NCBI RefSeq assembly: GCF_030285925.1
Contig: NZ_CP127251.1
Location: 2,666,001 to 2,730,000 of the forward strand
DNA: 64,000 bases
From: Devosia sp. YIM 151766
GTDB taxonomy: Bacteria > Pseudomonadota > Alphaproteobacteria > Rhizobiales > Devosiaceae
Direction: 5' to 3'
The notes under the pieces are model-generated. The model made no database searches. It was not told the DNA's origin and worked only from the letters and a program-made list of their open reading frames with translations. Numbering within the stretch: position 1 is the first letter of the stretch; every line of letters starts with the position of its first letter. The position numbers and the translations under genes are program-made. Positions 5,001 through 21,172 of the stretch are shown here, piece by piece.

Positions 5001-9713
<4,713 letters not shown>

Positions 9714-12059: not shown

Positions 12060-13619
12060 CTACATCACCGCCCCGACCTGCCAGGGCACGAATTCATTGT
12101 CGCCATAGCCCAGCGCCTCGGACTTGGTCTTCTCGCCCGAAGCCACGCGCAGCAGGCACTCGAAAATCTCCTGCCCCTTGTCCTCGATGGACACGCCTTC
12201 GACGATATCGCCGCAATTGATGTCCATGTCGTCCATCATGCGCGCATACATGTCCGAATTGGTCGCCAGCTTGATCGATGGCACCGGCTTGCAGCCATAG
12301 GCCGAGCCGCGTCCGGTGGTGAAGGCCAGGATATTGGCGCCGCCCGCCACCTGCCCGGTCGCCGAGACCGGATCGAAGCCCGGCGTGTCCATGAACACGA
12401 AGCCCTTTTCGGTCACCTTCTCGGCATATTCATAGACCGCCGTAAGCGGCGTGGTGCCGCCCTTGGCCGCCGCGCCCAGCGATTTTTCCAGAATGGTGGT
12501 CAGCCCGCCCAGCTTGTTGCCGGGCGAGGGATTATTGTTCATCTCCCCGCCATTGCGGCCGGTATAATCTTCCCACCAATGGATGCGCTGGATCAGCTTT
12601 TCGCCCACTTCCTTAGAGACGGCGCGGCGCGTCAGCAGATGCTCGGCGCCATAGATTTCCGGCGTTTCCGAGAGGATGGCCGTGCCGCCATTGCGCACCA
12701 GGATGTCGGCGGCGACGCCCAAGGCCGGATTGGCGGTGATCCCTGAATAGCCGTCCGAGCCGCCGCATTGCAGCGCCAGGGTCAGATGGCTGGCATCCAC
12801 GGTTTCGCGCCGCGCCCTGGCGGCGATGGGCAGCATTTCCTTGATCCGCTCCACGCCCCAGTCGATCATCTTCTGCGTCCCGCCGATCTCCTGGATCGTC
12901 ATGGTCTGGAAGGTGTCGGTTTCCTTGAGGTTATAGGCTTCCTTCATCTTGTCGATCTGGAACGCCTCGCAGCCCAAACCCACCAGCAAGGCGGCGCCGA
13001 GATTGGGATTGGACGTATAGCCCCATTGGGTGCGGCGGAAGATCTGGTAGCCTTCTCCGCTCAAATCCATGGCGCAGCCGGTGCCATGCACGAAGGGGAT
13101 CACCCCGTCGATCTCGGGATAGTCGTCCAGCGCGCCGGAACGATTGATCGCCTCCGCCATGAACTTGGCCACCGTCGCCGAGCAGTTCACCGAGGTCAGG
13201 ATGCCGATATAATTGCGCGTGCCCACCGAGCCATTGGCGCGCCTGAAGCCCTCGAAGGTCGGGCGCTGCGCTTCCGGCACGAAATCCACCGGCATCACGC
13301 CTTCGGCAAAGGCATAATCATGGGTCAGCGTGCCGTCGGCGCCGCCCATGCCGCAATTGTGCTCATGCACCCAGTCGCCCGGGGCGATGCCGTCCTTGGC
13401 AAAGCCGATGATCTGGCCGAATTTCATCACCGCCTCGCCGGCGGCGATCGGGCGGGTCGCGAATTTATGCCCGCGTGGCACCCGGCGGATAATGGCGACG
13501 CCCTGCGCCGTTTGTGCGCCCACCTCTAGATTGGCCAGGGCCACGCCGATATTGTCGGCGACATTGAGCACAAGGGTCTTGCCCTCTGGCGGGCGGGTCA
13601 TGGTCATGGTCTCGGTCAT
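12060..13619 (-). CDS. UxaA-family sugar-acid dehydratase (altronate/galactarate dehydratase-like)
   Basis: 519 residues from the ATG at 13619, containing both the N-terminal SAF-like UxaA domain and the large C-terminal dehydratase domain. The N-terminal domain has [13 protein letters not shown] around residue 85. The C-terminal domain shows [47 protein letters not shown] and [19 protein letters not shown]. Family members dehydrate sugar acids such as D-altronate with Fe2+. It is transcribed away from a GntR regulator with a palindromic operator between them, and FucU and FAH-type genes are close. Here it may act on L-fuconate or a related acid; that substrate is inference. Confidence 0.85.
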
Positions 13620-13733
13620 GGCAATCAAGGTTCCGGGGGCTTGAAAACATCGCAAGGTGCTTCGTCCTGCCTTGGCTTACCCCCTCGCCGTGTGCCAAGG
13701 GAGAAACCGGCATTGTCATTCACCAGCGCTCTA

Positions 13734-13747
13734 GCTAACATGTTAGC
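13734..13747. promoter_or_regulatory. Perfect 14-bp palindromic operator, site 1
   Basis: GCTAACATGTTAGC lies in the divergent intergenic region and abuts the ATG of the GntR gene at 13748, 115 bp from the dehydratase start. The core CTAACATGTTAG recurs before lldD (19957) and with one base-pair change before the FAH gene (14982). It is the probable binding site of the adjacent FadR-type GntR regulator. Confidence 0.75.
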
Positions 13748-14497
13748 ATGAAAACGGAAGCCGGTCCTTACGATTTTCTCCCGGTGGCGGGCACCTTTTC
13801 GCGCGGCACCGTCACGCTGGATGTCACCAATACCCTGCGGCAGGCCATCGTCACCCTGGCGCTGGCTCCCGGCGCCATGCTGGATAAGACCGCCATCTGC
13901 ACCCAGCTCGGGGTCTCGCGCTTCCCGGTGAGCGAAGCGCTGGCGCGACTGGCCGATGAAGGCCTGGTCGACATCGCTCCACAGCGCGGCTCCACCGTGT
14001 CGCTGGTCAAAATCGCCGATGTCCGCGAATATATGCTGATCCGCAAAGGCCTCGAAAGCGAGGCCCTGCGCGTCCTGATCGGCAAGCATGATGCCGGAAT
14101 CATCGCGGCGCTGCACGCCAATATGGCGGCCCAGCGCGACGCGGCCTCGCGCGACGACGCCGAAACCTTTCACCAGATCGACGTCGCCTTCCATGACACC
14201 ATTTTCCGCACCATGCGGCTCAGCAAGGTCAAGGCCATCATCGACAAGGCCCGCGCCAATCTCGACCGCGCCCGCCGCCTGATCATCACCCCGCGCCGAC
14301 TGGCTTTGACCATTGCCGAGCATCAGGCCATTTTCGACGGCATTCTCGCCGCCGACGCCCCCCGGGCCATCGCCGCCATCCGCGCCCATATCGACGCCGT
14401 CATGGTCGAGCTCTTCGCCTTTGCCGGCGAACATCCCGAACTTTTTGCCGACGGTGCCGAATTCACTCCCGACAAAGACGATTTTCCTTTCGGCTGA
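13748..14497 (+). CDS. GntR family (FadR/FCD type) transcriptional regulator
   Basis: 249 residues. An N-terminal winged helix (about residues 20-90: TLRQAIVTLALAPGAML, TQLGVSRFPVSEALARL, RGSTVSLV) is followed by an all-helical FCD effector domain (about 95-230) with FHQIDVAFHDTIFRTM and EHQAIFDGILAADA carrying the usual metal-ligand His residues. FCD regulators usually sense sugar acids, lactate or other organic acids. It is divergent from the UxaA-like dehydratase with a palindrome directly against its start codon, so autorepression is likely. The effector is unknown. Confidence 0.92.
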   Translation: MKTEAGPYDFLPVAGTFSRGTVTLDVTNTLRQAIVTLALAPGAMLDKTAICTQLGVSRFPVSEALARLADEGLVDIAPQRGSTVSLVKIADVREYMLIRKGLESEALRVLIGKHDAGIIAALHANMAAQRDAASRDDAETFHQIDVAFHDTIFRTMRLSKVKAIIDKARANLDRARRLIITPRRLALTIAEHQAIFDGILAADAPRAIAAIRAHIDAVMVELFAFAGEHPELFADGAEFTPDKDDFPFG

Positions 14498-14512
14498 ACC
14501 CACGGAACCGCC

Positions 14513-14947
14513 ATGCTCAAACATATCCCGCCGCTTCTCGGCCCCGAGCTTCTCGCCACCCTGCGCGCCATGGGCCATGGCGACGAGATCGTCATCGCCG
14601 ACGCCAATTTTCCGGCCAGTTTCCTCGGCCCGGAAGTGCATCGCGCCGACGGCATCGCCGCCACCGACATGCTCGATGCGGTGCTGACGCTGCTGCCGCT
14701 CGACGATTTCGTCGACCAGGCCGCCATCGGCATGGCGGTAGTGGGCGATCCCGAGGCGCGCCCGCCCATCTTTGCCGAGTTCGCGGCGATCATTGCCCGC
14801 CACGAGCCCAAGGCCGGTTTTTCCACTATTGAGCGCTACGCCTTTTACGACCGCGCCAGACAGGCCGCCGCCGTGATCCAGACCGGCGAAACCCGGCTCT
14901 ATGGCAATGTCATCCTCAAGAAGGGCGTCATTCGCGCCGCCGCCTGA
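14513..14947 (+). CDS. fucU: RbsD/FucU family sugar mutarotase, probably L-fucose mutarotase
   Basis: 144 residues, the usual FucU size. These enzymes interconvert anomers of L-fucose (or D-ribose for RbsD). Visible features are the N-terminal LLATLRAMGHGDEIVIADANFPA, quoted here only in part as GHGDEIVIADANFPA, with the catalytic His, and the C-terminal TGETRLYGNVILKKGV with the conserved Tyr-Gly-Asn. The FucU branch is favoured over RbsD by the ANFPA and RLYGNVILKKGV patterns. It lies 15 bp after the GntR gene, suggesting one transcript. Confidence 0.88.
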   Translation: MLKHIPPLLGPELLATLRAMGHGDEIVIADANFPASFLGPEVHRADGIAATDMLDAVLTLLPLDDFVDQAAIGMAVVGDPEARPPIFAEFAAIIARHEPKAGFSTIERYAFYDRARQAAAVIQTGETRLYGNVILKKGVIRAAA

Positions 14948-14981
14948 CAAGACGGATTGGACCAAAGCCGCCCTCGACAGC

Positions 14982-14993
14982 CTAACATGTGAG
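14982..14993. promoter_or_regulatory. Palindromic operator, site 2
   Basis: CTAACATGTGAG differs from the perfect palindrome of site 1 at one position of the right half. It lies 35 bp upstream of the FAH-family gene. Confidence 0.6.
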
Positions 14994-15028
14994 CCCTATG
15001 AGGGGCCACGACACTAGGAGACCCTGCC

Positions 15029-15880
15029 ATGAAATTGCTTCGCGTCGGCGCCAAGGGCGCCGAAAAGCCCGCTATCCTTGCCCAGGACGGTTCCATCCGT
15101 GACCTGTCGGGCGTCGTCGCCGATATTGGCGGCGAGGCGCTGACGCCTGCCGGCCTCGCCAGGATCGCCGCCGCCGACATCGCCAATTTGCCTCAATTGG
15201 ACGCCGCCGAGCGCATCGGGCCCTGCGTGGCCAATGTCGGCAAGTTCATCTGTATCGGCCTCAATTATGCCGACCATGCCGCCGAGACCGGCTCCCCGAT
15301 CCCGGACGAGCCGATCATCTTCATGAAGGCCACCAGCGCCATTATCGGCCCCAATGACGACGTCATCATCCCCAAAAACGCCATCAAGCCGGATTGGGAA
15401 GTCGAACTCGGCATCGTCATCGGCAAGGAAGCCCGCTATGTCGACGAGGCCGACGCCTTCGACCACGTCGCCGGCTATTGCCTCGTCAACGACGTCTCCG
15501 AGCGCCATTTCCAGACCGAGCGCGGCGGCACCTGGGATAAGGGCAAGGGCAGCGACACTTTCGGCCCCATCGGCCCCTGGCTCGTCACCCGCGACGAGGT
15601 TCCCGATCCGCAGAACCTCAATATGTGGCTCGAAGTCGACGGCAAGCGCTACCAGGACGGCTCGACCAAGACCATGATCTTCGGCGTCGCCAATGTGGTT
15701 TCCTATGTCAGCCAGTTCATGAGCCTGCAGCCGGGCGACATCATCTCCACCGGCACCCCGCCCGGCGTCGGCATGGGCATCAAGCCCGATCCGGTCTGGC
15801 TCAAGCCCGGCAATGTCATGCGCCTGGGCATTGACGGCCTCGGCGAGCAGACCCAGAACGTCAAGGCCTATAGCGCCTGA
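15029..15880 (+). CDS. Fumarylacetoacetate hydrolase family protein, probable 2,4-diketo-3-deoxy-L-fuconate hydrolase
   Basis: 283 residues. FAH-family enzymes cleave C-C bonds of 2-keto or diketo acids with a divalent metal. Seen: LNYADHAAETG (His), IIFMKATSA, DWEVELGIVIGKEARY with the Glu ligands near residue 122, a VNDVSERHFQTERGGTWDKGK active-site loop (first part quoted), and TPPGVGMGIKP. The TERGGTWDKGK and VGMGIKP patterns fit the group that splits 2,4-diketo-3-deoxy-L-fuconate into pyruvate and L-lactate. That assignment is supported by FucU upstream and an L-lactate dehydrogenase under the same operator motif. AGGAG precedes the ATG by 9 nt. Confidence 0.82.
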   Translation: MKLLRVGAKGAEKPAILAQDGSIRDLSGVVADIGGEALTPAGLARIAAADIANLPQLDAAERIGPCVANVGKFICIGLNYADHAAETGSPIPDEPIIFMKATSAIIGPNDDVIIPKNAIKPDWEVELGIVIGKEARYVDEADAFDHVAGYCLVNDVSERHFQTERGGTWDKGKGSDTFGPIGPWLVTRDEVPDPQNLNMWLEVDGKRYQDGSTKTMIFGVANVVSYVSQFMSLQPGDIISTGTPPGVGMGIKPDPVWLKPGNVMRLGIDGLGEQTQNVKAYSA

Positions 15881-15892
15881 CCGCACGCTTCC

Positions 15893-15932
15893 GCGCCCTC
15901 CCCCTCCCCCTCCCCCTCAAGGGGGAAGGCGC
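15893..15932. repeat. Short hairpin related to repeat family A, between convergent genes
   Basis: GCGCCCTCCCCCTC (from 15893) faces AAGGGGGAAGGCGC (to 15932) with one or two mismatches, around a run of CCCCCT repeats. It fills the gap between two convergent stop codons and may act as a shared terminator. Confidence 0.55.
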
Positions 15933-16877
15933 TCATTGCCCCAGCACGATATCCACTTCCGCCCGCGTCGGCGGATTGCAGCCCTTGCGCCCGCAATTGA
16001 TCCCCGCCACCACCGCACCGAAACGCAGCATGGCGTGAAGCTGTTCGCTGCCCAGCTCACCGAGCTCGGCGGGCCGGAGCGCGTCATGCTCGGCCAGCCA
16101 GGTGAGGATTCCCGCCATCAGGCTGTCGCCCGCGCCCACCGTGTCGCCGAAAACGGGCGGCGCATAGATCGGCGCCTGCCCCTTGGCGCGGCGTGAGAAC
16201 GCCAGGCTGCCCGCTTCCCCCAGCGTCACCACCACCAATCGGCAATGGCGGCGCCGCAGCAAATCGGCGGCATGGTCCTCGATGCTGCGTCCCGGCTCCA
16301 GCCAGGCATGGTCCTCCTCGGACAGCTTGATGATATGGGCGCTGTCGAGGAAACCGGAGAGCCGCGAGCGATAGCCCTTCTCGTCCTCGATCAGCTTCTC
16401 GCGCACATTGATGTCGATCGAGATGACGGCGCCGCGCCCCGCCGCCGCCGCCACCACATCGGTCCAGATCGCCGCATCCTCGGCCAGGATCGGACAGAAG
16501 CCGCCGATCTGATAGAGCTGCACCGCCTCGGGCAGGGCCGCCAGCAGGCCCTCACGGCTAAAGGCCCGGTCGGCGCCGCGCTCGAATATATAAGAGGCCT
16601 GCATCTTCTCGTTGAAGGTGACGATGGCCCGGGTCGTCGGCGCCGCCACCCGTTCGCCGAGCAATATGCTGACGCCGGCTTCGGCCAATGGCGCCAGCAA
16701 TAGCTCGCCATGCGCATCCTGGCTGATGGGGCAGAGAAAGCCGGCATCATTGCCCAGCTTGGCCAGCGCGATGGCGCAATTGAACGGCGATCCGCCCGCC
16801 AGCGCCACCCGCTCCGCATCCGCTCCGGCCGCGACCGGCACCAGATCGATAAGGCTCTCGCCGCCGACGACAAACAT
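15933..16877 (-). CDS. PfkB family carbohydrate kinase (fructokinase-like)
   Basis: 314 residues from the ATG at 16877. The PfkB family phosphorylates sugars or nucleosides with ATP. The sequence begins MFVVGGESLIDLVP, typical of fructokinases, with the sugar-binding GGSPFNCAIALAKLG near residue 30 and the anion-hole/base motif DTVGAGDSLMAGIL near residue 245. The frame is open further upstream, but GAGGGG precedes 16877 by 10 nt and the family start pattern fits. The exact sugar is unknown. It is convergent with the FAH gene. Confidence 0.88.
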   Translation of the reverse strand: MFVVGGESLIDLVPVAAGADAERVALAGGSPFNCAIALAKLGNDAGFLCPISQDAHGELLLAPLAEAGVSILLGERVAAPTTRAIVTFNEKMQASYIFERGADRAFSREGLLAALPEAVQLYQIGGFCPILAEDAAIWTDVVAAAAGRGAVISIDINVREKLIEDEKGYRSRLSGFLDSAHIIKLSEEDHAWLEPGRSIEDHAADLLRRRHCRLVVVTLGEAGSLAFSRRAKGQAPIYAPPVFGDTVGAGDSLMAGILTWLAEHDALRPAELGELGSEQLHAMLRFGAVVAGINCGRKGCNPPTRAEVDIVLGQ

Positions 16878-17078
16878 GCCCTGCATTCCCCTCGCCAATC
16901 TTCGCAGCGTGCCAATAACACTTTCTGCCACCCTGTCACCAGCGTCTCGGCGAACGGCCGGTGCGGGGCCATGACTTGGCCGTAATAAACGCTTATAAAA
17001 CAAAGGTATTGCGGCCGCCCGCGGACTAGCCGATGATCTTCGGCCATAGCTGGGCCCCTCACGCTTTTTCAGGATGCC

Positions 17079-18716
17079 ATGAACGTCTATCTCGTGCTCA
17101 TCAACATTGCCGGTGCGGTCACGCTGCTCTTATGGGCGACCCGCATGGTCCGCACCGGCATGGAGCGGTCGCAAAAGGCCGTTTTGCACCGGTTGCTGAG
17201 CCAGGGAAAGCGTGGCCATATCAAATCCGCGGCCCTGGGCGGCTTCGTCGCCATCCTGCTGCAAAGCTCCACTGCCGTGGCGCTGATCGCCGCCGGCTTC
17301 GCCGCCAGCGGCAAGCTGACGCTTTCGGCGGGCCTGGCCACCATGCTGGGCGCCGATCTGGGCTCCGCCGTGGTCGTGCAATTGCTCAGCGTCAATCCCG
17401 CCTGGCTCATGCCCCTGCTGATGATTGCCGGCGGCCTGATGTTCTTTCGCAGCCAGAACCGCGACATCCGCCAGGCCGGGCGCATCGTCATCGGCATTGC
17501 CCTGATCCTGATGTCCCTGCGGCTGATCGGCGAAGCCACCGCGCCCCTGCGCGAGGCCCCGCTTCTGCCCGATGTGGTGGCCTATCTCGCCGGCGACCCC
17601 TTCACCGCTTTCCTGCTCGCCGCCATCTTCACCTGGATCATTCATTCCAGCGTCGCCTTCGTCCTGCTCGTCGCCACCTTCGCCATGCAGGGCCTGGTGC
17701 CGTTCGAGCTGGGCGCCGCCCTGGTGCTGGGCGCCAATATGGGCTCCTCCATCATCGCCTTCATGCTGACCCGCGCTGGCACCGCCGCCGCGCGGCGCAT
17801 CACCCTGGGCAATTTCATCTTCCGGGCGAGCCTGGCCGTGGTCGGGCTCGGCCTGCTCTGGCTCAGCCATCTCCCCGGCACCTGGCTCGGCCCCGACGCC
17901 GCCCGGCAGATCATCAATTTCCACCTGCTGTTCAACGTCGTCCTGCTGCTGATCGCCCTGCCGCTCACGACGCCCATGGCCCGGCTCACCCTGCGCCTGG
18001 TGCGCGCCGGGCCGGAGCGGGAGCAACTCCTGGTCCCGCCCAGCCGGCTCGACGACAGGCTGATCGAGCAACCGGCCCTGGCCCTGGCCAGCGCCAAGCG
18101 CGAATTGCTGCGCATGGCCGAGATCGTCGAGCGCATGCTGCAGCCAGTCATGGAGCTTTATGAAAGCGCCGATCCCGAAAAGATTCGCGAGATCAAGCAG
18201 CTCGAACACGCGGTCAATGCCGCCCAGTCCGATATCAAGCTCTATCTCTCCCGCATCCGCTATGCCCATCCCAACGGCCCGGAAGCCCTGCGCGGCCAGG
18301 AATTGGCGCAATTGGCGATCAATCTGGAATATGTCGGGGATGCGGTGGTCAAAACCCTGGTCAAGCTCGCCGAAACCCGCGCCGAGCAGAAGGTGAAATT
18401 CTCCCCCGCCGGCTGGCGCGAGCTCAACGACCTGCATTACCGCGTGGTCGAGAACCTGCATCTGGCGCTCAATGTGCTGATGTCGGATGACCGCGCCTCG
18501 GCCGAATTGCTGCTCGAGCAGAAAGCCTCGCTCGGCCATGCCGGCCGCGCCAGCGCCACCGAGCATCTGGTGCGCCTGCGCGAGGGCGCCCAACGGTCCA
18601 TCGCCACCAGCGATCTGCATCTGGAAACCGTCCGGGCGCTGAAGAATATCAACTCCCTGCTGGCCAGCGTCGCCTATCCGGTACTCCAGCGCACCGAAGA
18701 CCCGCAGCCGCAATAG
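17079..18716 (+). CDS. Na/Pi cotransporter family protein with PhoU-like C-terminal domain
   Basis: 545 residues. The N-terminal about 310 residues are a membrane domain with eight or more hydrophobic segments and two inverted-repeat signatures, LLQSSTAVALIAAGF near residue 60 and a second IIHSSVAFVLLVATF near residue 185. These are the QSSS-type motifs of the NptA family. The C-terminal about 200 residues are helical and PhoU-like (EIVERMLQPVMELYES, LAINLEYVGDAV). Family members transport phosphate with Na+, or regulate it. The second motif lacks the Gln (HSS). It is divergent from the kinase. Confidence 0.87.
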   Translation: MNVYLVLINIAGAVTLLLWATRMVRTGMERSQKAVLHRLLSQGKRGHIKSAALGGFVAILLQSSTAVALIAAGFAASGKLTLSAGLATMLGADLGSAVVVQLLSVNPAWLMPLLMIAGGLMFFRSQNRDIRQAGRIVIGIALILMSLRLIGEATAPLREAPLLPDVVAYLAGDPFTAFLLAAIFTWIIHSSVAFVLLVATFAMQGLVPFELGAALVLGANMGSSIIAFMLTRAGTAAARRITLGNFIFRASLAVVGLGLLWLSHLPGTWLGPDAARQIINFHLLFNVVLLLIALPLTTPMARLTLRLVRAGPEREQLLVPPSRLDDRLIEQPALALASAKRELLRMAEIVERMLQPVMELYESADPEKIREIKQLEHAVNAAQSDIKLYLSRIRYAHPNGPEALRGQELAQLAINLEYVGDAVVKTLVKLAETRAEQKVKFSPAGWRELNDLHYRVVENLHLALNVLMSDDRASAELLLEQKASLGHAGRASATEHLVRLREGAQRSIATSDLHLETVRALKNINSLLASVAYPVLQRTEDPQPQ

Positions 18717-18735
18717 GCCGACGGCCCCCTTCTCG

Positions 18736-19920
18736 TCACCCGCGCGCTATCGGCGCGTTGCGCGGCGGAAGGTCGTTGGAATAGATATTGTGCAGCCCGA
18801 CATTGAGAATGTCGCGCTCTCCGCACAGCGCCATGGTGGTGTCGAGTTCCCTGCGCATGATCTCGAGCACCCGCGTCACGCCCGCTTCGCCTCCCGCACC
18901 CAATCCATAGAGCATAGGCCGGCCGATAAAGGTCGACTTGGCGCCATAGGCCAGCGCCTTGATCACGTCCTGGCCCGAGCGGATGCCGCTATCGAGATAG
19001 ATTTCGGTCTTGTGCCCGACGCGGTCGACGATTTCCGGCAAGACCCGGATCGTCGATGGCGCGCCGTCCAATTGCCGCCCGCCATGATTGGAGACCACGA
19101 TGGCATCGGCGCCATTGTCGATAGCCGCCTGTGCGTCGTCGGCGTCGAGCACGCCCTTGACGATGACCGGGCCGCCGAACCGCTCCTTGATCCAGCGCAC
19201 ATCGCTCCAATTGAGCGTCGGATCGAACTGGCTGGCGGTCCAGGCCGACAGCGAGGCCAGGTCGTGGTCGCCGCTCACATGGCCGACAATATTGCGGAAG
19301 GTACGCCGCTTCGTCCCCAGCATGCGCAGGCACCAGAGCGGATGCTGCATCATCTGCCAGATCGAATGCGGGGTGAATTTGGGCGGGGTGGAGAGCCCGT
19401 TGCGGATATCCTTGTGCCGCTGGCCCAGGATCTGCAAATCCATGGTCAGGATCAGCGCCGAGCATTTCGCCGCCTTGGCGCGGTCGATCAGCCGATGGAT
19501 GAAATCGCGGTCGCGCATCACATAGAGCTGAAACCAGAACGGGGCGCCGGTATTTTCGGCGATGTCCTCGATCGAGCAGACGCTCATGGTGGAAAGCGAA
19601 AAGGGAATGCCGAATTTCTCGGCTGCCTTGGCCGCCTTGATCTCGCCATCCGCCACCTGCATGCCGCCGGTCGCCGCCGGGGCGATGGCCACCGGCATGG
19701 TGATGTCCCGGCCCAGCATCTTCACCTTGAGATTGCGCCCCTCCAGGTTCACCGCCACCTTCTGGTTAAGCAGGATCTTGGCAAAGTCGCTCTCATTATC
19801 GCGATAGGTGCTCTCGGTATAGGAGCCGCTATCGGCATAGTCGAAGAACATCTTCGGCACCCGCCGATGCGCCAGTCGCTTCATTTCGTCGACGGTCAGA
19901 ACCTTGTCGATAGCGGTCAT
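18736..19920 (-). CDS. lldD: FMN-dependent alpha-hydroxy-acid dehydrogenase, L-lactate dehydrogenase type
   Basis: 394 residues. It oxidises L-lactate to pyruvate using FMN, feeding the respiratory chain from the inner face of the membrane. Seen: FFDYADSGSYTE, MPVAIAPAATGGM, FWFQLYVM, the active-site VVSNHGGRQLDGAPS near residue 280 (His base and Arg) and the phosphate-binding DSGIRSGQDVIKALA. Its leader contains the same CTAACATGTTAG palindrome as the GntR/uxaA region. This links it to removal of lactate made by the FAH-type enzyme. Related oxidases act on mandelate or glycolate, but the lldD reading fits best. Confidence 0.9.
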   Translation of the reverse strand: MTAIDKVLTVDEMKRLAHRRVPKMFFDYADSGSYTESTYRDNESDFAKILLNQKVAVNLEGRNLKVKMLGRDITMPVAIAPAATGGMQVADGEIKAAKAAEKFGIPFSLSTMSVCSIEDIAENTGAPFWFQLYVMRDRDFIHRLIDRAKAAKCSALILTMDLQILGQRHKDIRNGLSTPPKFTPHSIWQMMQHPLWCLRMLGTKRRTFRNIVGHVSGDHDLASLSAWTASQFDPTLNWSDVRWIKERFGGPVIVKGVLDADDAQAAIDNGADAIVVSNHGGRQLDGAPSTIRVLPEIVDRVGHKTEIYLDSGIRSGQDVIKALAYGAKSTFIGRPMLYGLGAGGEAGVTRVLEIMRRELDTTMALCGERDILNVGLHNIYSNDLPPRNAPIARG

Positions 19921-19956
19921 TCACGGGCACTCCGGCTGTTTCGCCTGCCCTAGCAA

Positions 19957-19968
19957 CTAACATGTTAG
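19957..19968. promoter_or_regulatory. Palindromic operator, site 3, upstream of lldD
   Basis: Perfect CTAACATGTTAG, 37 bp upstream of the lldD ATG, where repressor binding would block transcription initiation. Confidence 0.7.
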
Positions 19969-19975
19969 CAGTCAA

Positions 19976-20031
19976 CTTCATGCCGGCCCTGCGGGTAAAA
20001 TCGCTCCGGTGGAGCGATTTTAGGCATGAAG
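19976..20031. repeat. Nested palindrome: perfect 11-bp hairpin inside an outer 9-bp stem
   Basis: AAAATCGCTCC (19997-20007) pairs with GGAGCGATTTT (20011-20021) around GGT, with T or A runs on both sides, like a bidirectional terminator. Outside it, CTTCATGCC (19976-19984) pairs with GGCATGAAG (20023-20031). More GC-rich inverted pieces continue to about 20105. Only operator and repeats fill 19921-20267. Confidence 0.65.
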
Positions 20032-21022: not shown

Positions 21023-21172
21023 CGCCCCCTCCCCCTTGAGGGGAGGGCCGGGGTGGGGGTGCTGCGGTTCCCGCAAAATCAGCAGTCTTGCCCGCGCTCC
21101 GCCACCCCCACCCCAGCTGCGCTATGGCCCTTCAGGCCAGCTACGCTACCCTCCCCTCAAGGGGGAGGGCGC
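21023..21172. repeat. Long inverted-repeat element, family A, copy 2
   Basis: Ends GCCCCCTCCCCCTTGAGGGG and CCCTCAAGGGGGAGGGC, with the shared inner GGTGCTGCGGTTCC next to the left arm. It fills most of the gap between modA and modB, so it would be transcribed within the mod message. Confidence 0.75.

Follow-up and report, generated by a model that had tools for sequence, protein, structure and literature searches.

A 64-kb window of Devosia sp. YIM 151766 DNA (contig NZ_CP127251.1, positions 2,666,001 to 2,730,000) contains a gntR gene and, ahead of three transcription units, copies of a 12-bp palindrome, CTAACATGTTAG. The palindrome is most probably the operator of the GntR protein (13748-14497), which would be the autoregulated FadR-type repressor of a regulon. 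This regulon is real and well conserved. Its kind is familiar; the operator departs from the consensus, and the set of targets is unusual. On our best reading, it serves a non-phosphorylating L-fucose-type route that leads to pyruvate plus a 2-hydroxyacid and that has been extended in Devosia to oxidation of that acid.

An earlier, sequence-only reading of the window had described a 12-bp palindrome shared by three promoters, and we found it ahead of gntR, the FAH-type hydrolase gene (FAH) and lldD. Two copies of CTAACATGTTAG are exact. One, at 13735-13746 within GCTAACATGTTAGC (13734-13747), is separated by 1 bp from the start codon of gntR (ATG at 13748); the other, at 19957-19968, precedes the minus-strand gene lldD, whose ATG at 19920 is 36 bp away. 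The FAH copy, CTAACATGTGAG (14982-14993), has one mismatch and is followed 35 bp on by the ATG at 15029. The distances given earlier thus hold for gntR (adjoining) and FAH (35 bp), whereas that for lldD is 36 bp instead of 37. Allowing up to two mismatches, we found no fourth copy in the window, in line with that reading, which had noticed no other; the PfkB and Na/Pi genes that separate FAH from lldD lack a site. The three matches at this threshold compare with a shuffle mean of 0.50; because 1 of 100 shuffles also reached three, the excess within the window alone is moderate at most, which suits a reading of the palindrome as a coincidental or unrelated repeat, or as the site of a different protein.

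The one-mismatch search that the sequence-only reading had proposed was run on the whole genome holding the window (G000; 3.29 Mb, one contig). It revealed five places for the palindrome, two of them outside the window, versus two for the reversed pattern. An exact palindrome lies 10 bp ahead of the ATG of a 971-aa GlcD/Dld-like FAD/Fe-S dehydrogenase (Dld), whose best NCBIfam model is GlcD (161.6 bits; cut-off 567.9). CTAACATGTCAG (in the gene's direction) lies 57 bp ahead of a RhaK-like FGGY kinase gene, which is followed, after a gap of 28 nt with AAGGAG (read by eye), by a type II NADH dehydrogenase (NDH-2) gene; the product of the latter passes PF22366 (NDH2_C; 36.6 bits, cut-off 27.7) and gives 376 bits to the NADH:ubiquinone reductase 9MQY. 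A symmetric two-mismatch copy, CTGACATGTCAG, was found 27 bp upstream of the start of an aldo-keto reductase (AKR) gene; among solved structures, L-galactose dehydrogenases are closest to its product (102 bits). At least three more distant operons (Dld-like, FGGY/NDH-2 and AKR) therefore carry the operator, and the regulon is not confined to the locus, as had been supposed; these sites rule out a regulon that is local only. A GguC/AraD1-family gene (L254 3386-4381; NF040903, 549 bits, over the cut-off) directly precedes AKR and its operator, and a homolog occupies the same position in L240.

Across 75 genomes of the genus, the exact palindrome occurs in 288 copies, with at least one in 74 of the 75, and the reversed control occurs once. 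The palindrome is therefore real; these counts, together with the sites ahead of gntR orthologs, rule out a chance repeat. For 72 of the 75 genomes, a gntR ortholog with at least 71% identity was listed; the exceptions (G049, G060 and G062) are 55-78% complete. Every exact site of 18 other Devosia genomes (G001-G018) was retrieved (n=74), and 72 precede five orthologous targets: gntR/uxaA (18), lldD (18), Dld (17), FAH (11) and FGGY (8). Copies scattered without relation to promoters, which the sequence-only reading had named as the case that would speak against it, are thus not what these 72 sites show, and the other two also precede enzyme genes. One, in G002, lies between a short-chain dehydrogenase/reductase (SDR) gene and a fuconolactonase-like gene (79.9 bits, cut-off 400); the SDR resembles L-2-keto-3-deoxyfuconate 4-dehydrogenase (KDFDH), its closest match being 8XWK (282 bits), which is identified as that enzyme in PMC11199699. 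The other, in G016, lies ahead of a zinc alcohol dehydrogenase gene.

With G000 included, the exact site is present at gntR in 19/19 genomes, at lldD in 19/19 and at Dld in 18/19 (the Dld of G007 is left out). FAH has a site with at most one mismatch in 14/19 genomes, and G006 has the symmetric two-mismatch form. For FGGY and AKR, the best 30 loci each were counted. An FGGY site with at most one mismatch was found in 29 of 30 loci, 29-62 bp from the start (exception L309), and FGGY is followed by an NDH-2-like gene in G000 and, among other genomes, at 7 of 8 loci (L074 has an unrelated small frame instead). Of the 30 AKR loci, 26 carry CTAACATGTCAG and 3, including G000, a two-mismatch form, so that only L262 lacks a site. 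A sugar-binding-protein gene is preceded by the site in L198 (one mismatch, 75 bp) and L209 (exact, 51 bp). Site conservation, fixed positions and gene order can be read directly from these genomes; positions are kept across the genus, which makes a single regulator for the three units of the window, as first suggested, very probable. From this conservation we infer that the GntR protein binds the palindrome. The palindrome also occurs at L199 4174 (one mismatch) and L201 13101 (exact), ~200 bp upstream of another GntR gene, whose product has an SSRTTVREA helix.

Outside the genus but within the same family, 29 of 61 genomes have an exact copy and 6 of 61 have matches to the reversed control. 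In a scan of gntR orthologs (best 80 of 555 candidates, named records, 120 bp upstream), the site was present ahead of all 80 (72 exact, 6 with one mismatch, 2 with two), versus 3-6 mismatches for the best match of the reversed pattern. These orthologs include members from Arsenicitalea, Labrys, Microvirga, Mesorhizobium, Aestuariivirga and Dongia. With 288 exact copies against one reversed in the genus, and with the site accompanying gntR into other families and Dongia, a chance repeat or a site of another protein is highly improbable. The genes downstream of gntR in Dongia (L215, L217) include lactonase-, KDFDH- and FAH-like ones, and an AKR homolog of G084, from another genus of the family, has an exact site.

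The constant sites at lldD and Dld, and the NDH-2 gene behind the kinase, would also suit an LldR-like regulator whose effector is L-lactate or another 2-hydroxyacid, the sugar genes following as its producers. We consider this unlikely. The GntR protein scores 33.8 bits on the LldR model NF007741 (cut-off 311), and in eight genomes outside the genus, seven with one exact copy and one with two, the exact sites are at gntR/uxaA plus one ahead of AKR, and lldD and Dld have no exact site. Because these genomes mostly have a single exact copy, the ancestral unit was probably the gntR/uxaA divergon, and the wider, scattered regulon appears to have arisen by expansion on the Devosia side.

Helix types were compared order-wide in the 26 best loci (L131-L156). 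The site is present for all 15 proteins with an SRFP-type helix: exact in 11, with one mismatch in 1 and with two in 3. A site with at most one mismatch was found for 4 of 7 proteins with an SRS/SRQ helix (L150, L151, L153 and L155; not L135, L146 and L149) and for none of 3 with an SRTP/SKTP helix; L148 has an exact site, but its helix reading is unreliable. The four SRS/SRQ relatives rule out the SRFP helix as sole cause of the operator. They also indicate that the operator belongs to a GntR set somewhat wider than the orthologs, for which the SRFP helix is not required.

The operator positions at gntR, lldD and FAH suit a repressor. TAACAT (13736-13741), inside operator 1, would be the -10 element of a leaderless gntR transcript; since it is part of the operator, only the gntR -35 counts as independent evidence, and at its offset 18/19 genus sequences match TTGACA in at least 4 of 6 letters. 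A -35-like hexamer at fixed offset was also found for lldD (18/19) and FAH (13/14), the site occupying the spacer behind it. Promoter elements read by eye for Dld and FGGY were dropped because the offset count did not bear them out. An activator role at FGGY, considered from the site position alone, found no support.

The GntR protein has the domains of the FadR (FCD) subfamily, an N-terminal winged helix-turn-helix (wHTH; PF00392) and a C-terminal FCD domain (PF07729), and scores below the curated cut-offs of every matching NCBIfam GntR model. D145, H149, H192 and H214, which may be the metal-binding Asp/His set of FCD domains, are invariant in 31/31 sequences. The FCD domain with these residues would fit a carboxylate effector, probably a sugar acid or 2-keto-3-deoxy sugar acid. 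Beyond binding, we infer repression, effector, substrate and promoter elements as follows. Without effector, the GntR dimer would lie over the -10/start of its own, possibly leaderless, promoter and also shut the divergent uxaA, and it would occupy the -35/-10 spacer of the FAH and lldD promoters, blocking RNA polymerase. With effector present, the mutarotase, the dehydratase, the 1-dehydrogenase-like AKR, the diketo-acid hydrolase, LldD and the GlcD/Dld-like dehydrogenase would be released, and the last two would oxidise the 2-hydroxyacid made by the hydrolase. The Devosia regulon would also take in the RhaK-like kinase and the NDH-2 gene behind it.

Most of a non-phosphorylating route III is accounted for by FucU, AKR, the FAH hydrolase and the UxaA-type dehydratase. 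The mutarotase gives 129.7 bits with the L-fucose mutarotase model NF011949 (cut-off 141) and 43.5 bits as RbsD. The hydrolase gives 441.9 bits with NF053535 (cut-off 500), and its closest solved structure is L-2,4-diketo-3-deoxyrhamnonate hydrolase (8GSR, 336 bits). LldD passes the subfamily model NF008398 and stays under the cut-off of NF033901 (356 bits; 550). The closest solved structure to the dehydratase is galactarate dehydratase 6U7L (342 bits); a plain galactarate dehydratase was ruled out by TIGR03248 (400 bits, cut-off 731). The hydrolase and lldD would fit an ending in pyruvate and lactate, and lldD and the RhaK-like kinase appear to favour lactate-yielding deoxyhexoses. Candidate substrates are L-fucose, D-arabinose or L-galactose. 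G000 also has a lactonase-like gene at 95.8 kb and KDFDH-like copies at 251 and 912 kb. These two very similar KDFDH-like genes (L255 5047-5778 and L256 6837-7568) encode proteins 77-78% identical to that of G002; one is accompanied by a sugar ABC transporter, and the other lies beside TRAP-transporter-like genes.

Several observations weigh against the reading of one GntR regulon for an L-fucose-type route. At FAH, the best matches in G002, G004, G005 and G007 differ from the palindrome at five or more positions. The lldD and FAH -10 elements agree with TATAAT at only about 2 of 6 positions, and the offset count assigned no promoter elements to Dld or FGGY. Several enzyme models (FucU, FAH, lactonase and GlcD) fall short of their cut-offs. 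The site also accompanies some less closely related regulators whose helix differs, and a related protein could therefore recognise the operator as well. The G000 KDFDH copies and lactonase have no operator at up to two mismatches in the stretches searched; KDFDH lies under the same operator in G002 and not in G000. A second L-fucose-type locus of G000 (L255, 246-258 kb), with an ABC transporter, KDFDH, L-fuconate dehydratase and its own FCD-type GntR, has no operator.

The L-fuconate dehydratase of this second locus is of the enolase type (575 bits to 2HNE). In H. huttiense, a UxaA/GarD-family enzyme is the D-arabinonate dehydratase of a route III to glycolate, and the same enzyme set can take D-arabinose to pyruvate and glycolate (PMC6336799). 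Because of this separate dehydratase and the H. huttiense precedent, the simple view of the window dehydratase as an L-fuconate enzyme is spoken against. The same regulator and operator could instead serve D-arabinose (or L-galactose), with the UxaA-type enzyme as D-arabinonate (or L-galactonate) dehydratase and with pyruvate plus glycolate (or glycerate) as products, the latter oxidised by LldD and the GlcD/Dld-like protein. GlcD as best model of the Dld-like protein and the resemblance of AKR to L-galactose dehydrogenases agree with this. We regard it as a serious possibility but a rather doubtful one: lldD passes an L-lactate dehydrogenase model, the mutarotase scores as FucU far above RbsD, the hydrolase is closest to a lactate-yielding rhamnonate-type enzyme, and the RhaK-like kinase points to deoxyhexoses.

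The rha locus of G000 (L253 9321-19002) comprises RhaI (805 bits, cut-off 647), RhaD (1079 bits, cut-off 568), a DeoR-like regulator, a transporter and rhaM. No RhaK-family kinase was found in the 19.9-kb stretch around these genes, and no operator at up to two mismatches in the stretch searched. G000 has one RhaK-family FGGY member at E 1e-40. The FGGY kinase under the operator is about 53% identical to annotated FGGY kinases that lie next to rhaM; among the best 120 proteins listed in a wide search with it, no functional name more specific than FGGY kinase appeared. Rhizobial RhaK has been suggested to act mainly as a rhamnulose kinase (PMC9025865). It is possible, at somewhat short of even chances, that a sugar-acid repressor that was self-contained in the ancestor turned, in Devosia, into a switch acting across the chromosome and coupling oxidative deoxyhexose/pentose breakdown to the respiratory chain. 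If so, two hydroxyacid dehydrogenases, NDH-2 and the only RhaK-like kinase would be under one operator, which is atypical for FadR-type proteins, and growth on L-rhamnose would depend on a fucose-type regulator.

Table 1. Operators, genes and putative gntR promoter element of the locus (positions in the 64-kb window)
Feature	Position	Strand	Remarks
UxaA/GarD-type sugar-acid dehydratase	12060..13619	-	divergent from gntR; ATG taken at 13619; Pfam GD_AH_C, GD_AH_second, SAF
Putative -35 TTGTCA of gntR	13713..13718	+	predicted; 17 nt before TAACAT
Operator 1, GCTAACATGTTAGC	13734..13747	.	1 bp to gntR ATG in 19/19 genomes
GntR regulator, FadR/FCD type, 249 aa	13748..14497	+	PF00392 51.1 bits (cut-off 27), PF07729 67.8 bits (cut-off 24.3)
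FucU/RbsD-type mutarotase	14513..14947	+	PF05025
Operator 2, CTAACATGTGAG	14982..14993	.	between putative -35 TCGACA (14974-14979) and weak -10 (14997-15002)
FAH-type 2,4-diketo-3-deoxy-sugar-acid hydrolase	15029..15880	+	PF01557
lldD, FMN-dependent L-lactate dehydrogenase type (predicted)	18736..19920	-	NF008398 406.8 bits, over cut-off 376
Operator 3, CTAACATGTTAG	19957..19968	.	between putative -35 TTGACT (19975-19970, minus) and weak -10 TAGGGC (19952-19947, minus)

Other features of the window were noted. A strong inverted repeat, AATCGCTCC/GGAGCGATT (about 19996-20022), has a modB-like gene on one side and the lldD operator on the other; a similar repeat lies ahead of lldD in L089, and it is perhaps a terminator. 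Repeated intergenic stretches rich in CCCTCCCC/GGGGAGGG are found at 15898-15925 and 21036-21170. A 901-aa open frame (6993-9698, minus), antisense to a glutamate synthase-like gene, is probably a product of high GC content.

A literature text search for CTAACATGTTAG gave no match, and among the matches listed for TAACATGTTA none was on bacterial sugar regulation. We found no published account of the operator or of a Devosia regulon in the literature searched, which did not extend to RegPrecise. A specific, testable regulon with fixed operator positions is now defined for Devosia, and the co-regulation points to possible functions of enzymes whose annotation is loose. It would be a clean example of a repressor that began locally and grew into a scattered regulon touching respiratory genes. 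The off-consensus operator is common to a set of GntR proteins without the usual Arg of the VREA helix stretch, which may aid the reading of operators from GntR sequences. The FadR subfamily is defined by domain make-up, the operator not being decisive, and BioR and NanR are published exceptions to its operator consensus. That consensus is usually TKGT-N2/3-ACMA (PMC4494728); CTAACATGTTAG, with its core AC-AT-GT, does not conform to it. In other respects, the predicted system resembles those of UxuR, DgoR, GlcC and LldR, as outlined in PMC4494728 and PMC5343134: wHTH plus FCD, palindromic site, autoregulation, a divergon with a metabolic gene and a carboxylate-linked pathway. Unlike in those systems, the Devosia targets are scattered over the chromosome.

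The enzymes resemble route III for L-fucose/D-arabinose as given in PMC11199699 and PMC6336799, which runs through mutarotase, 1-dehydrogenase, lactonase, dehydratase, KDFDH and FAH-type hydrolase to pyruvate and lactate or glycolate; unlike in the described route, the G000 genes are scattered and only part of them have the operator. The excerpts of these two papers do not describe control of route III by this GntR. The extension of a deoxyhexose regulon to L-lactate oxidation has a parallel in the RhaR regulons that include lldD (PMC3870299), from which the Devosia regulon differs in regulator family and operator. In the Rhizobiales covered by that paper, rhaK lies within the rha operon (PMC3870299), whereas in G000 the only kinase found of this family lies elsewhere, under the GntR operator.

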